A stretch of DNA of 64,000 nucleotides from Spartobacteria bacterium (GTDB lineage: Bacteria > Verrucomicrobiota > Verrucomicrobiia > Chthoniobacterales > UBA6821): positions 1 to 64,000 of the forward strand of contig CANIVT010000006.1 in the NCBI GenBank assembly GCA_947471565.1. The letters are read 5' to 3'. Below are positions 1,352 through 6,763 of this stretch, in pieces (within the stretch, counting starts at the first letter, position 1; the number at the start of each line of letters is the position of its first letter). The notes under the pieces are model-generated. The model was not told where the DNA came from and ran no database searches. It was given only the letters and a program-made list of their open reading frames with translations. The position numbers and the translations under genes were made by a program.

Positions 1352-1972
1352 GTGATATCACGCAATCTCACGGGCTTTCCATCTTTACGCCCACTCCGAG
1401 CATCAGAACTTCCCGTGAGAAAGGGTTTCTCTCTCCTAGAATTACTCTCCGTCCTGGGACTCCTAGGCATGTTGGCAGCACTCTCCTTCCCGGCATGGCG
1501 GTCTTTGTTAAGTTCAGGCGCCCGTCGGACGGGTGAGTCACGGATCATGGATGCCATGGAGCATGCCCGTAGCGAGGCAATCTCCTCCGGTCGGGAGGTT
1601 TGGGTTGTGTTCCGACACAACGGGGCAAAAGGGCCGGATGCCGATCGCATCATGGCAAGAGAGGGTGGAAAAATCGTCCCCTTGGGCGGATGGAATCGAC
1701 TCCCTCAGGGCATCACCTTCCATGCAGGATCGAAAGCCATTCCCGATGCCCGCCCCCCAAAGGAGATTCTGGAGACGGCTGACAATCCAGCCTGTGTGCA
1801 GGATTCCTTCGGAGCGGTGATGTTCCTTCGCTCTGGAACCGTCGGCTGGCCCAAACCGGGCGCAGAAAGCCTCTGCATCCCTCTGGATTCCATGGGCGGG
1901 ACAAGCCTCATCACCCTTTCCAGGGGCACCGGACGAGCAAGTATTTCCCGACCTCAAGGAGGAAACCAATGA
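1352..1972 (+). CDS. vccD: Verru_Chthon cassette protein D (GspH/FimT-like minor pseudopilin)
   Basis: The 206-residue product carries a class III prepilin signal: VRKG before the cleavage point, then FSLLELLSVLGLL, with glutamate at mature position 5 and a hydrophobic helix of about 20 residues. After it comes a globular domain whose size matches GspH/FimT pseudopilins. The start is uncertain. GTG 1352 gives a 25-residue leader, while GTG 1415 would give a leader of only MRKG; neither has a good ribosome site. The stop overlaps the next start by four bases (ATGA), so it is translationally coupled to protein B. The family is known by name from Verrucomicrobia but has no assigned function; the GspH comparison is my inference. 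Confidence 0.85.
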   Translation: MISRNLTGFPSLRPLRASELPVRKGFSLLELLSVLGLLGMLAALSFPAWRSLLSSGARRTGESRIMDAMEHARSEAISSGREVWVVFRHNGAKGPDADRIMAREGGKIVPLGGWNRLPQGITFHAGSKAIPDARPPKEILETADNPACVQDSFGAVMFLRSGTVGWPKPGAESLCIPLDSMGGTSLITLSRGTGRASISRPQGGNQ

Positions 1973-2490
1973 GGAGTACCGACGTGCCCTTGCGCGGATT
2001 CACGCTGCTGGAAATCCTGATTGCCACGGGACTCTTTGCCATTGCGGTGACCGGACTGATCGCCCTGTTTCCAACAGTTCAGCGCGTTTCCCGCGAGGGG
2101 GAGGAAGAGGCGCGGGCAACCCTGATCGCGGAAAACATCCTCGACACCTTGACGCTTCCCTCTCGCCCCGGTGCCTTCTCTCTGGCTACCGGATCATCAG
2201 GTCGCTCGCTCTGCTTTGAACCGCTCGACCCTCGCTTACCCTCGGAGCATTTCGTGGCTTACGGAGCAGCCTGCGAGCCCCTCTTTCCTTTGGAACAAGA
2301 AAAGGCCTGCTTGCCGGCCACTAATCTGGAGGTTCTCGACATCGCGTCCGTCCGTCTGGGAACAAAACCCTCTCTCCCCGGACTGGTGTTGGCGGAAATT
2401 GAGGTCACCTCGCCGGCCTCGGCCCCGGCTTCAGGGCGCTCAACGCAGCGATTCGTCCGCCTCTTTCCGATGCCTCCCGCTCATGACTAG
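1969..2490 (+). CDS. vccB: Verru_Chthon cassette protein B (GspI/PilV-like minor pseudopilin)
   Basis: This 173-residue protein begins with a nine-residue leader ending in RG, then FTLLEILIATGLFAIAV, a clear prepilin peptidase site with Glu5. The residues after the helix (LFPTVQRVSREGEEEARA) resemble PilV/GspI minor pilins, where the helix runs into a polar amphipathic stretch. It overlaps protein D by four bases and protein C by eight, so D, B and C are one coupled unit. It is expected to be inserted in the inner membrane and then built into a pilus-like fibre or tip. No function has been assigned to the family. Confidence 0.85.
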   Translation: MRSTDVPLRGFTLLEILIATGLFAIAVTGLIALFPTVQRVSREGEEEARATLIAENILDTLTLPSRPGAFSLATGSSGRSLCFEPLDPRLPSEHFVAYGAACEPLFPLEQEKACLPATNLEVLDIASVRLGTKPSLPGLVLAEIEVTSPASAPASGRSTQRFVRLFPMPPAHD

Positions 2491-3217
2491 CAGGCTTTCC
2501 CGGATCTCACCTCGAAGGCCGACTGCCGCCTTCACCCTGCTGGAAGTCCTGATTTCATCGGTCATCCTGCTCACGCTGATGGTCCTGCTGCTCGGAGTCT
2601 GCGAAGGGGGCTCTCGTTTCTGGAACCACGCGGAACGACGCAGGGCCCCGCTCCGAGAAGCCGGTGCTTCCCTGCGACTCATTGCTCACGATCTCAGGTC
2701 TGCCGTGATCACGGCCGATCCCTCTTCCCTGGTTATTCAGAGGGGAACAAACGGGATGGACTCGCTTTTTTTTCTCGTTTCACACCCCTCCGATCACCGT
2801 CCCGGAACGAGCGTTGGGGATCTCTGTGCGACAGGATATTTTCTCGCTCCTTCCCAGCATGACCAAGGTGAACAGGCCCTCTACCGCTTCCACGCCTCGG
2901 GTCATGAGGTTCTGGAAGCCCTTGAGTCAGGAACGTTACTGAAGCTTTATGCATCAGCCACACCCGGATCGGCCGACACCGAACTGTTAGCCCGGCATGT
3001 GGCCTCCTTGGATGTGCGCTCTATCGATTCAGGATCCACATCGGACCATCCATCCGCACTGGCGCTGGAAATCATCACCGTCGATGGGAATACCGATAGC
3101 CTGCTTGCCAGAGCGGGATCCGATTGGAATTCCCGGGAAAAATTACTCTCAAAGAACAGCGCGCGCCTCGGCGCCGTGGTATCCCTCCCTCCCGTCCGTC
3201 AACCCGTTCCCCCCTAA
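2483..3217 (+). CDS. vccC: Verru_Chthon cassette protein C (GspJ/PilW-like minor pseudopilin)
   Basis: The 244-residue product starts at ATG 2483, inside the last codons of protein B; the open frame continues upstream but overlaps B out of frame. Residues 15-36 read AAFTLLEVLISSVILLTLM: a prepilin helix with Glu5, but with alanine instead of glycine before the cleavage site. The following RFWNHAERRRAPLREAGASL and RLIAHDLRSAV are typical of GspJ/PilW proteins, where an Arg-rich stretch precedes the globular domain. It ends in TAATG, overlapping the start of protein A by one base. Confidence 0.85.
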   Translation: MTSRLSRISPRRPTAAFTLLEVLISSVILLTLMVLLLGVCEGGSRFWNHAERRRAPLREAGASLRLIAHDLRSAVITADPSSLVIQRGTNGMDSLFFLVSHPSDHRPGTSVGDLCATGYFLAPSQHDQGEQALYRFHASGHEVLEALESGTLLKLYASATPGSADTELLARHVASLDVRSIDSGSTSDHPSALALEIITVDGNTDSLLARAGSDWNSREKLLSKNSARLGAVVSLPPVRQPVPP

Positions 3218-5982
3218 TGAACCGGCGGCAGACCATTTTACTGCGTCATGACAGCCCTGTCGCTTCAGCGGTTGTCTCGGTCCTGATCGTCGTTGCCTTG
3301 CTCAGCATGGTGCTGGTGGGACTGCTTCAGGGAGTGCGCTTGGACAGAAAAAGCTCCTCTTCTTTCGCCCGCGAAACGGAGGCTCGCTTCGCCACGGATT
3401 CCGCAGTTGCTGCGGCAATGACGCGCCTCTCCCTCTGCATTTCCAATGCACCCGCCTTCGTTGTTGGTCTTGCGCACCGCGGTTCGTCGAATGAAGGAGT
3501 TGCCCCTGCACTTGTGCTGAGTGTCACCAACCTCGACAGCACGCAGCAATTGGTGCCGCTCTTCTCCTGCGATCTGAAACCTCTGGCTTCCTATCCGAAG
3601 ATACCGGCCGATTATGCAGAACATCAGATTTCCAACAGCCTCTCGACCAACCCGCTCCTCTGTGTTGATCTGAATGATCCTAAACTTCTCGGATCACCTG
3701 CCGGAGAAGGCACGGCCACTCATCTTCAGGAATGCCTGATCGCGTCCGAAGGAAAATACCCCGCGCTCTGGCAACATCTGACTGATAGCTCGGGCAGAGT
3801 GGTTGCCCGCTATGCCTTCGTGATGACAGACGAATCGTCGCGATTGAATCCGGCACTTGCCGGAAAAGGGACGCGTACGGATCCCATGGATTGGGATCAT
3901 GGACCGGGGGACATTGCTCTGACGAATGCTGCAGGCACCCTTCTCTCTGCCGAGGAGGCGGATCACCTGATCAGGGAAGCCACCATGATGCCGACGGAGG
4001 AGAGTTTCGCGCACGCGTTCGGGGACCAGGAGCGTTTTCAGGAAAAGAGTCATCTGCTTACCCGCGACCTCTGTCTTCTCCCTGACGTGATCCCCGCAGG
4101 CTATCCGGAGGGAGGCCTGCCTAAATACAACATCAACGATATGGCTACCAATCCGGCGTGGGGTGCCACCCCCTATGCCCGGGCAACCAACATTGCCGCC
4201 GTCATCGACCGAAATCTTCCGAAATTCAAACAGCGCGACCCGTCGCTTTCGGCCAACCAAGGGATCCTCTATCTGCAGCGACTCAGTTGCTCCCTTGTGG
4301 ATTACATCTCCGGAGATCCCGAGTCGACGGGAGCATCTCCAGAGGAACCACTGGGTCGTAACCTCGTCCCGTATGTCACGCAGCTGGCGGAGAGGTGCGT
4401 CCGAAAGGAACTCACAAGCAACTCCGTGACCATTGAGAGCCGGTTCTTTGCCGAGGTCTGGAATCCCAATACCTCGGCCATTCCGTCGGGCGGCATTGCC
4501 TCCCTGACCATTACCAACCGAGCGCGCCTTCTCTACGGAACAGGGATCGCCTCACCCTTCCATGATTATCACGGCACGTCTGCGCCCCTGCCCTCAATCC
4601 GCCCCAACGAATTGATCGTGATCGCTTTTCCTCCCCAGGAGCAGACCTGGAGTTCACCGACGACCACGACCTCCGCCCCATACTGGAAGCAGGGACCGCT
4701 TGGCAATGCGAACGACGCGATGCATCAGCCATTCCTCTTCTCGTGGAACGGACGGGTGGCCGACCGCACCCGTCCAGCAGGCATCTCCCCATCGGATCAA
4801 GCCGGGGGCCTCATGCATTTGGAGCAGCAACTCACCAACAGTCTTCCCTACTGGCAGTGCATGACGGTTCCAACAGGCTCCTCGAAATCGGGGGGAGACT
4901 CCGAGGAGGTCGATGCGGACGAGGCGATCTCACCTGGCAGTTACCGTGCGGTCGGGGATCCCCGGCAGACATTTCTCACGACCTACCTCTGGCAGGCAGT
5001 GAAGGATTATCAGGGGAAAACCCGATGGAACGGCGTCAATCCCGCCGGCCTCAGCCAACCGGGATCGATCCTCGACCCAATGAACATCTGGACGAGACGT
5101 GACCGCGTCCCGGTCAATCCCGTCACCGGGATCCGCCCCGCGTCCATCAACCAGACCCCTGAGACGATCGCCAACCCCTATGACCCGGCTCGGGATGGGA
5201 ACCTCGCCCCCTCAGTGATCCGAAAGGGTACGATGAATGCCATCGGGGAGCTTGGAAACATCTATGACCCCGCACAGGCGGACGATGCCGGAGAATCGCC
5301 CAAGGCCGGGGGCAAAGGACGGGAAAACGTCTTCTGCTCAGGCGGCGGGCGCACCCTGCGATTCGGGCAACCCGAATTCCATTCCGCGAACCCGAAATAC
5401 GACTGGGATGTTCCCGGTAAGCGCGCCCTCGATCTGATCGATCTTTTTACGGTGAAGGATATGGGTCGCCAACCCGGTGCCACGATGAGTGGGACGAATG
5501 CCGGCATTCCCGGAAGGATTAATGTGAACACAGCCTCACACGGAGTGCTCACCGCCCTCTTCTCCGGCGTCTCGGTGAGCTCGGACCAACGCTTTACCAA
5601 CTGCACACTCAGCGCTTCAGCCTCTGATCACCTTGCTTCCTTGATCGAGGAACATCGCCCCTTCAACCGGCTCTCGGACCTAGGATTCCTCACCACCGAT
5701 CTGGTCAACGCGGACTCCTATCTCCCGACCCTCTCCCGCAACGCCCCAGGCAGTTCGCCTCCGGCGGCCGATGTCTTTGACAGGGCAAGGGAGGAGGCTT
5801 TTGCCAAAATCATCGGCCATTGCTCCGTCCAGTCTCGCAGTTTTCGGATCGTGGCCGTGGGACAGGCCGTTGATCTTGCGGGAAAACCCGTCTCGACCTC
5901 GGTGATGGAAGGAATCATCCATCTCACCCCCGATACCCGAGGAACACTCGTTCCCTCGCTGCACGACGTCCGCTGGCGCTGA
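3217..5982 (+). CDS. vccA: Verru_Chthon cassette protein A (large GspK-like tip pseudopilin)
   Basis: The 921-residue product starts at ATG 3217, one base into the stop codon of C; the 31 extra upstream codons of the open frame lie within C. The N-terminus (SPVASAVVSVLIVVALLSMV) is a pilin-like helix without Glu5, as in GspK, followed by a heptad-like stretch (FARETEARFATDSAVAAAM). Near residues 767-775 it has GRINVNTAS followed by VLTALF, the helix-hairpin-helix motif of GspK, and around 813 a second such segment (RPFNRLSDLGFLT). It is about three times longer than GspK, with a large central region. By analogy it would cap the fibre; this is inference. Confidence 0.85.
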   Translation: MNRRQTILLRHDSPVASAVVSVLIVVALLSMVLVGLLQGVRLDRKSSSSFARETEARFATDSAVAAAMTRLSLCISNAPAFVVGLAHRGSSNEGVAPALVLSVTNLDSTQQLVPLFSCDLKPLASYPKIPADYAEHQISNSLSTNPLLCVDLNDPKLLGSPAGEGTATHLQECLIASEGKYPALWQHLTDSSGRVVARYAFVMTDESSRLNPALAGKGTRTDPMDWDHGPGDIALTNAAGTLLSAEEADHLIREATMMPTEESFAHAFGDQERFQEKSHLLTRDLCLLPDVIPAGYPEGGLPKYNINDMATNPAWGATPYARATNIAAVIDRNLPKFKQRDPSLSANQGILYLQRLSCSLVDYISGDPESTGASPEEPLGRNLVPYVTQLAERCVRKELTSNSVTIESRFFAEVWNPNTSAIPSGGIASLTITNRARLLYGTGIASPFHDYHGTSAPLPSIRPNELIVIAFPPQEQTWSSPTTTTSAPYWKQGPLGNANDAMHQPFLFSWNGRVADRTRPAGISPSDQAGGLMHLEQQLTNSLPYWQCMTVPTGSSKSGGDSEEVDADEAISPGSYRAVGDPRQTFLTTYLWQAVKDYQGKTRWNGVNPAGLSQPGSILDPMNIWTRRDRVPVNPVTGIRPASINQTPETIANPYDPARDGNLAPSVIRKGTMNAIGELGNIYDPAQADDAGESPKAGGKGRENVFCSGGGRTLRFGQPEFHSANPKYDWDVPGKRALDLIDLFTVKDMGRQPGATMSGTNAGIPGRINVNTASHGVLTALFSGVSVSSDQRFTNCTLSASASDHLASLIEEHRPFNRLSDLGFLTTDLVNADSYLPTLSRNAPGSSPPAADVFDRAREEAFAKIIGHCSVQSRSFRIVAVGQAVDLAGKPVSTSVMEGIIHLTPDTRGTLVPSLHDVRWR

Positions 5983-5998
5983 AATCAATCCCTTTCCC

Positions 5999-6763
5999 AT
6001 GCTCGCCGCATCATTTCTCCTCCTGGCCCAGAGTCTCGCCATCTCGCATGGGACGACGACCGGTCATCGCGTGATGGCGCATTCCCACCATGGTCATCCC
6101 TTCCCCAATCCCTCCGCCACTCCTCAGGTAAAAGTCACCATCGTCAACGCCACCTGCGCCCCCTCCATTGCTCTCTCCGTGTCAGGAACGAATCTTCCCG
6201 TTGCCTATCCCTCTTTTCCGCAGGGGGAATGGACGGCCAATGCAGCCGTCACCAACACGGAGATCCATTACACGGCGCGCTTTCCAGAAGGTCAGGTGAT
6301 CGCCAACAGGATCATCCGTCTCGCTCCGCAATCCTCCCAATTCCTCCTTCTCACTGGGGATCTCAGCCGGAAGGGTCCCTCCGAAAAGCTCCCCCAAATG
6401 ACGCCAACCTCCTGCGAATCACCTCATCCTTGGCCAGCAAACTTTCAGTTCCATCTCTATACCGTCGAATTGGTCACGAAGGATCCCTGCCATTACCGGG
6501 TCGTCAACGCGATGCCGGGGAAAACTCTGACCCTTCTCACGCGAGCGCATGACGGAAAACCGTCACGCCTTCTCGGCCTTCTCGCTCCGGGCAACAGCCT
6601 TCTGCTGACAGGTCAACCCTCCAGCATTGACTGGATCGCCGAGATCGACGGGGAATCCCGTCCGCTGGCGATCACCCAGGAAGGGGCTGTCGGCAACTGC
6701 CTCATCCCCTTTTTCCTGAGAAATGGAAAACCCGATTTCGTGCGGGTCTTTGAAACCCCCTGA
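5999..6763 (+). CDS. Secreted protein of unknown function, linked to the Verru_Chthon cassette
   Basis: A 254-residue protein begins 16 bases after cassette protein A. Residues 1-16 (MLAASFLLLAQSLAIS) look like a short signal peptide, followed by a His-rich stretch (GHRVMAHSHHGHPFP). The rest is predicted beta-rich, with about four repeats of a strand-turn pattern. Three cysteines (in NATCAPS, PTSCESP and DPCHYR) and a fourth near the C-terminus (VGNCLIP) could form disulfides. I do not recognise a family. Its position, strand and spacing suggest that it is co-transcribed with the pseudopilin genes and acts outside the inner membrane. Confidence 0.7.
   Translation: MLAASFLLLAQSLAISHGTTTGHRVMAHSHHGHPFPNPSATPQVKVTIVNATCAPSIALSVSGTNLPVAYPSFPQGEWTANAAVTNTEIHYTARFPEGQVIANRIIRLAPQSSQFLLLTGDLSRKGPSEKLPQMTPTSCESPHPWPANFQFHLYTVELVTKDPCHYRVVNAMPGKTLTLLTRAHDGKPSRLLGLLAPGNSLLLTGQPSSIDWIAEIDGESRPLAITQEGAVGNCLIPFFLRNGKPDFVRVFETP

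Follow-up and report, generated by a model that had tools for sequence, protein, structure and literature searches.

A stand-alone Verrucomicrobiota gene cassette as a candidate GspH-I-J-K-like tip set with a greatly enlarged GspK-like protein

The closest described counterpart of the locus analyzed here is the GspH-I-J-K set of the type II secretion system (T2SS; 3CI0, 2RET, 5VTM), with which it has in common the gene order, a glutamate at position +5 (Glu5) in three proteins though not in the last, and a largest member encoded last. Efficient filament assembly needs Glu5, and the signature of a tip pilin is the absence of this residue, a larger size and the last place in the gene cluster (PMC5207764). 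GspK has been proposed as a substrate contact, and the minor-pilin clusters of type IV pili are commonly stand-alone with one of their four proteins lacking Glu5, as illustrated by the three type IVa pilus clusters of Myxococcus xanthus, each of the FimU-PilV-PilW-PilX(-PilY1) kind (PMC7541494). PilX of Pseudomonas aeruginosa lacks the large insertion of GspK, and the minor pilin ComZ of Thermus thermophilus contains a large DNA-binding domain as an insertion (PMC7248040). By annotation, the nearest named family is the same four-gene set, Verru_Chthon A–D (TIGR02600, TIGR02598, TIGR02599 and TIGR02596), which is curated as being of unknown function; a literature search for 'Verru_Chthon cassette' found no paper.

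Gene layout and the prepilins D, B and C

The window is a stretch of 64,000 nucleotides on contig C6 of a freshwater Verrucomicrobia bacterium, and the D-B-C-A gene set occupies positions 1352–5982 of its forward strand. Gene D (1352..1972, + strand; 206 aa, GTG start) encodes a GspH-like prepilin with the site G/FSLLE, gene B (1969..2490, +; 173 aa) a GspI-like prepilin with G/FTLLE, gene C (2483..3217, +; 244 aa) a GspJ-like prepilin with A/FTLLE, and gene A (3217..5982, +; 921 aa) a GspK-like protein with A/SAVVSV, in which Ser stands at +5. The overlaps of 4, 8 and 1 bases by which a sequence-only reading of this DNA had described the genes as coupled are exact on these coordinates, and Glu5 is present in D, B and C and absent from A, as that reading had noted. 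Among relatives, the alignment shows Glu5 kept in every D (13/13), B (18/18) and C (19/19), and Glu at +5 was seen in no relative's A among the proteins with an available N-terminus. All four genes are under purifying selection, with dN/dS of 0.12–0.25 against the nearest relative; these values, together with conservation of the cassette in 20 of 22 family genomes, rule out chance or decayed open reading frames.

The proposed correspondence to an H-I-J-K gene order with a large K last is matched by the coordinates and by the best-partner matrix, in which profiles compared with the T2SS of the same genomes paired D with GspH, B with GspI (96.6%, in the N-terminal helix), C with GspJ and A with GspK. 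The further claim that protein sizes rise in gene order failed, as there is a dip at B. Since the genome's own GspH, GspI, GspJ and GspK (∼144–152, 128, 218 and 320 aa) show the same dip and then rise, the size pattern suits H-I-J-K better than had been claimed.

The profile similarity of the four proteins to GspH, I, J and K lies mostly in the N-terminal helix, and once this helix was removed the profile comparison gave no sequence signal for the D–H, B–I and C–J pairs. None of the four reaches the curated NCBIfam cut-offs for GspH, I, J or K, and the genome's own GspH, I, J and K likewise fall under the NCBIfam equivalog cut-offs. D exceeds the cut-off of the Pfam GspH domain (PF12019; 23.6 bits vs 21), and B scores 27.8–29.7 bits on the XpsI, PilV and GspI models, each below cut-off. 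C gave a good AlphaFold2 model (pLDDT 84) whose top Foldseek matches are the GspJ chains 2ret, 3cfi and 3ci0_J (E 1e-5 to 2e-4), so that the whole predicted fold of C is the GspJ fold.

Two GspK motifs and an enlarged segment in A

When A was searched against GspK, all 16 of 16 A proteins matched both NCBIfam GspK (best 2.7e-11) and Pfam T2SSK (best 2e-5). The window's own A reached 2.6e-6 on NCBIfam GspK, which is under cut-off, and its T2SSK match covers residues 768–789. Two motifs of GspK are present in A, and they follow one another as they do in GspK and in XcpX. Motif 1, YAFVMTDESSRLNP (3811..3852, +; residues 199–212), aligns with YTVTLGDDSGLINP in the organism's own GspK, a match equalled by 3 of 100 shuffles, and is carried by XcpX as well. 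Motif 2 is the helix-hairpin-helix (HHH) segment GRINVNTASHGVLTALFSGV...HRPFNRLSDL (5512..5706, +; residues 766–830), whose counterpart in XcpX is LNVNTASVPVLAAMF and whose similarity to the organism's own GspK was reached by 0 of 100 column shuffles. The GRINVNTAS motif that had been reported for A is indeed present, but one residue away from the place given, at 766–774 rather than 767–775. The two motifs stand ∼567 residues apart in A compared with ∼114 in GspK, the enlarged segment between them measures ∼560 residues, and A as a whole is ∼3 times the size of the genome's own GspK.

The HHH motif alone is unspecific for GspK, because the RNA-binding protein Tex has it: a six-frame search of the genome with T2SSK matched, apart from the A proteins of both cassettes, only Tex, and the third of these matches, on contig C16, was rejected as a GspK since its sequence reads as Tex. 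The C-terminal strands gave no signal between A and GspK (48 of 100 shuffles equally good), and a profile of A matched no PDB sequence at E≤10. Full-length A modeled by AlphaFold2 with 19 sequences gave a poor structure (pLDDT 55), for which Foldseek returned only insignificant matches, several of them GH2 enzymes at E ∼0.05–0.2 and none GspK; because the model is so poor and its matches insignificant, it was counted neither for nor against a GspK fold.

Family, distribution and filament machines

The label 'Verru_Chthon cassette', which the sequence-only reading had applied, holds as the nearest annotation but not as membership by the curated cut-offs, which all four proteins miss by far (D on TIGR02596, 23 bits vs 70; B on TIGR02598, 16.5 vs 51.4; C on TIGR02599, 30.1 vs 256.5; A on TIGR02600, 35.7 vs 332.3). 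The TIGR02600 cut-off is passed in only 7 of 289 genomes, most A proteins of the phylum lying below it, and a canonical TIGR02600 member matches the GspK model too. A second cassette lies on contig C18 of the same genome, and protein B there passes TIGR02598 (61.7 bits vs 51.4). The D-B-C-A order, the prepilin pattern and a downstream gene E recur within the genus, and relatives of the cassette family occur in about half of the genomes in the Verrucomicrobiota sample.

GspE, GspF and GspG genes, which a tip set on its own would have to find elsewhere, were sought and are present in the genome, which encodes both a T2SS and a system for type IV pili. The T2SS lies on contig C7 with its own H-I-J-K, apart from the cassette; the pilus system is of the Amuc_1098 type; and the assembly ATPase, platform, major pilin and one single prepilin peptidase are all encoded. 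An N_methyl search for prepilins returned, besides the T2SS, only the two cassettes as H-I-J-K-like sets. Cassettes in genomes devoid of a prepilin peptidase would have spoken against a pseudopilin role, and a peptidase was found in 156 of the 157 A-positive genomes, the exception being 84% complete.

A stand-alone tip and its alternatives

The observed side of the tip reading consists of the prepilin sites, the Glu5 pattern, the gene order, the profile pairing, the GspJ fold predicted for C and the GspK motifs of A.

We consider it probable, at roughly 0.7, that D-B-C-A is a four-protein minor pilin tip (priming or capping) complex equivalent to GspH-I-J-K. The earlier idea of a stand-alone set of this kind gains support from the GspK and T2SSK matches, the C fold and the machines encoded elsewhere. 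In the mechanism we propose, the single prepilin peptidase would cleave D, B, C and A, after which B, C and A would build a staggered tip with A on top, where it is placed because it lacks Glu5 and is too bulky to enter elsewhere. D would connect the major pilin with this tip. The assembled set would prime a filament, either of the T2SS or of the type IV pilus, which an assembly ATPase and platform from other loci would push. A itself would be a GspK with a grown segment between its motifs, presumably displayed by the tip or binding a substrate or surface. This resembles ComZ in being a pilin with a large inserted domain expected at the tip only; the comparison concerns insert size and expected tip place, whereas DNA binding belongs to ComZ.

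Myxococcus tip clusters that share one machine are a precedent for a stand-alone tip. The cassette is like them in being a separate set of four minor pilins of which one lacks Glu5, with several sets to one core machine and, as predicted here, an extra secreted protein alongside. It is possible, if somewhat short of an even chance, that the Amuc_1098-type pilus uses the cassette as its type IV minor-pilin set (FimU-PilV-PilW-PilX type), the large segment of A being a tip adhesin in the role that PilY1 has elsewhere. B fits PilV as well as GspI (29.0 vs 27.8 bits), A scores weakly on PilX_N (18.5 bits, below the cut-off of 25.5, which a relative passes at 28.2), the T2SS already owns an H-I-J-K, and genomes positive for A have Amuc_1098-like secretins more often (126/157 vs 76/132). 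Against it, A carries the HHH/T2SSK motif and a huge insertion, unlike P. aeruginosa PilX, and an Amuc_1098-like secretin is missing from 31 of the A-positive genomes, which also rules out an exclusive partnership with that pilus. No PilY1 counterpart was identified, the small protein E being unrelated to PilY1 in the searches run.

The likeness of A to GspK and of C to GspJ would also suit an alternative T2SS pseudopilus tip, exchanged in for the secretion of particular substrates, in keeping with the contact proposed for GspK and with a canonical T2SS GspK in 20 of 22 family genomes. We regard this only as a tentative option, for the T2SS cluster and the cassette are unlinked, no substrate gene was identified, and one genome (G004, 97% complete) has T2SS GspK but no A, which means that the T2SS can do without the cassette. 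That the four are prepilin-like membrane proteins which kept the helix for export and form a separate cell-surface complex outside any filament would account for a similarity mostly confined to that helix and for a bulk of A unlike any solved structure, yet it is improbable given that the predicted fold of C is entirely that of GspJ, that all D, B and C proteins retain Glu5 and A alone is devoid of it, and that the HHH motif persists in A.

New here are the link to a tip for the 'Verru_Chthon cassette', which gives a curated family a testable function, and a GspK-like protein of greatly increased size that is widespread across the Verrucomicrobiota. More speculatively, the phylum might carry interchangeable pilus or pseudopilus tips, often in several copies. 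Their GspK-like cap, enlarged to ∼700–1700 residues, would itself do the binding or act as the effector, and a single core machine could in this way be fitted with a choice of heads, each suited to particular substrates or surfaces. Swappable tip complexes would be a possible way of re-targeting one filament machine, and the enlarged GspK-like proteins the first place to seek what Verrucomicrobiota filaments bind or secrete.

Directly after A lies the conserved partner gene E (5999..6763, +; 254 aa), which matched no NCBIfam or Pfam family and whose protein, judged by eye from its sequence, is probably exported; it could serve the tip as a partner or be its cargo. Within the genus, E directly follows A on every contig that extends far enough, G015 (locus L043), where it was not found, being the exception. 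It follows A in locus L097 as well, and the copy there is the only one with a weak DUF4397 match.

Cassette organization and identity of D, B and C

The four cassette genes lie on the forward strand as the sequence-only reading had placed them: D at 1352–1972 (GTG start, 206 aa), B at 1969–2490 (173 aa), C at 2483–3217 (244 aa) and A at 3217–5982 (921 aa), with overlaps of 4, 8 and 1 bases. In accordance with that reading, D, B and C carry prepilin sites with glutamate at position 5 after the cleavage site (Glu5; G/FSLLE, G/FTLLE and A/FTLLE), while A has serine at this position (A/SAVVSV). Its proposed GRINVNTAS motif is present in A, at residues 766–774 rather than 767–775. Protein sizes do not rise strictly along the cassette as claimed, since B is smaller than D; the GspH, I, J and K proteins of the same genome's canonical T2SS dip likewise at the second position, so the size pattern supports the proposed likeness to GspH-I-J-K.

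All four proteins resemble the Verru_Chthon cassette families of NCBIfam with scores far under the curated cut-offs, and D exceeds the Pfam GspH cut-off (23.6 against 21 bits). When cassette profiles were compared with those of canonical T2SS genes collected from the same genomes, the best partners were GspH for D, GspI for B, GspJ for C and GspK for A, with the signal mostly in the N-terminal helix; D, B and C profiles stripped of this helix retained no signal against the T2SS profiles. An AlphaFold2 model of C built from 17 sequences (pLDDT 84) matched, in a Foldseek search of the PDB, the GspJ chains 2ret, 3cfi and 3ci0_J and the Thermus pilin TTHA1219 (E 1e-5 to 6e-4), with no other match below 0.1, and in a sequence search of the PDB the C profile likewise matched TTHA1219 best (1e-6). 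The predicted structure is evidence for the GspJ likeness of C that is independent of the helix-dominated profile signal.

A compared with GspK

The proposed relationship of A to GspK held in profile searches, where each of the 16 A sequences in the family alignment matched the NCBIfam GspK model (best 2.7e-11) and Pfam T2SSK (best 2e-5); the match of the window's A to T2SSK (residues 768–789, E 0.0084) is under the cut-off. A six-frame T2SSK search of the whole genome at E<=1 hit three places only, namely the A proteins of two cassettes and Tex, which carries a helix-hairpin-helix (HHH) of the same kind as A. Compared with the genome's own GspK, the HHH segment of A outscored 100 of 100 column shuffles, the score of a motif upstream of it (YAFVMTDESSRLNP in A, YTVTLGDDSGLINP in GspK) was reached by 3 of 100, and the C-terminal strands gave no signal in this test. 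Both motifs occur in the same order in Pseudomonas aeruginosa XcpX (5vtm), as RVRIEDPSGRFNLN then LNVNTASVPVLAAMF. The distance between them is ∼114 residues in the genome's own GspK, ∼341 in the A protein of locus L147, 567 in the window's A and ∼1010 in that of the second cassette, so A reads as a GspK in which the segment between the two motifs is greatly enlarged. The full-length A model was poor (pLDDT 55) and gave no significant fold match; in PDB sequence searches the A profile matched no chain, and the own-GspK profile found XcpX at 0.007.

A proposed tip complex and the machines it could serve

The genome (2.28 Mb, 97% complete) contains the separate GspE, F and G genes that a stand-alone tip would call for: a T2SS cluster on contig C7 (G, H, I, J, K, M, D and E), and, on C1, a GspF/PilC gene accompanied by one for a GspG-like pilin. 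There are also two adjacent PilB-type and four PilT-type ATPases and, on C21, pilus genes of the Amuc_1098 to Amuc_1101 type; C23 carries the single A24 prepilin peptidase. On C18 (L007 6967–13725) lies a second, diverged D-B-C-A cassette, whose B is over the TIGR02598 cut-off and whose A has ∼1400 aa; this brings the H-I-J-K-like sets of the genome to three, alongside two kinds of machine. The next gene after the second cassette encodes a 250-aa protein unlike E, the gene downstream of the window's A.

These data support the reading of D-B-C-A as a tip complex of minor pilins, which gives the Verru_Chthon family, so far of unknown function, a useful functional assignment. After cleavage, B, C and A would most likely assemble as a GspI-J-K-like cap, with D as the connector between this cap and the major pilin; the resulting complex would prime the filament of a machine encoded elsewhere. 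The gene anatomy, the homology of the parts and the presence of the machines are observed; complex formation, tip position, the machine served and the roles of the enlarged segment of A and of E are inferred. Absence of Glu5, larger size and the last position in the gene cluster have been proposed to mark the minor pilin at the tip (PMC5207764), and the GspK insertion is thought to restrict GspK to the tip (PMC7248040). Stand-alone tips have a precedent in Myxococcus, where one machine has three stand-alone FimU-PilV-PilW-PilX-PilY1 clusters (PMC7541494). Of the 'stand-alone pseudopilus tip' of the sequence-only reading, the tip complex is upheld; the machine served may be a T2SS, for which 'pseudopilus' in the strict sense would hold, or a T4P. 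These alternatives are versions of the tip-complex explanation rather than competitors to it. T2SS and T4P minor pilins can substitute for one another (PMC7248040).

Elsewhere in the genome, a second Amuc_1098-type secretin (748.6 bits) besides the C21 copy lies at a contig edge (C3:11–2146). A 2452-aa open frame, which may encode a large protein that is secreted or surface-exposed, adjoins the T2SS cluster on the opposite strand (C7, L005 12610–19968). C44, a contig of 3.3 kb, carries a lone Glu5 prepilin of 261 aa (L011 1841–2626) that may stem from another, fragmented cassette.

Conservation and distribution

A is present in 20 of the 22 available family genomes. D-B-C-A order is constant in the genus, where most junctions are short overlaps or gaps, and is kept in a second genus, where D can precede B by 0.8 to 2.8 kb (∼0.85 kb in locus L096, ∼2.8 kb in L098). 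In comparison with the closest relative, the window's genes have dN/dS values of 0.22 for D, 0.17 for B, 0.25 for C and 0.12 for A, which marks them as real coding sequence. Neither crcB nor the his genes that flank the cassette were seen in the relatives, whose loci are short (∼1.5 kb of flank); this leaves D-B-C-A, plus E in the first genus, as the conserved unit. E (5999–6763, forward strand, 254 aa) lies downstream of A throughout the genus and in locus L097, and no copy was detected in the second genus; its only family match is a weak one of the L097 copy to DUF4397, and it is possibly a tip partner or cargo. The window's A subfamily extends past the family and occurs in 32 of 197 genomes from across the order; one 97% complete genome (G004) has a T2SS GspK and no A, showing that the cassette is dispensable.

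Across Verrucomicrobiota, the TIGR02600 model picks out A-type proteins in 157 of 289 genomes, mostly by their N-terminal part and in only 7 genomes over the cut-off, often with many candidates each; since many matches are short and N-terminal, this counts A-like proteins rather than verified complete cassettes. The sequence-only reading had named cassettes in genomes devoid of a prepilin peptidase as evidence against it; an A24 peptidase is present in 156 of the 157 A-positive genomes (the exception, G283, is 84% complete), and all eight near-complete genomes without one also lack A (Fisher p=0.003, uncorrected for ancestry). T2SSE-type ATPases, present in 288 of 289 genomes, are therefore uninformative. 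Amuc_1098-like secretins are enriched among A-positive genomes, 31 of which lack one. The GspK model matched every one of 10 diverse A proteins, one of them a canonical TIGR02600 member; many of the diverse A loci also show Glu5 prepilins upstream and, late in A, an HHH-like motif. Three loci (L137, L143 and L144) exceed the four-gene cassette, with four or five consecutive Glu5 prepilins beside a giant A-type protein.
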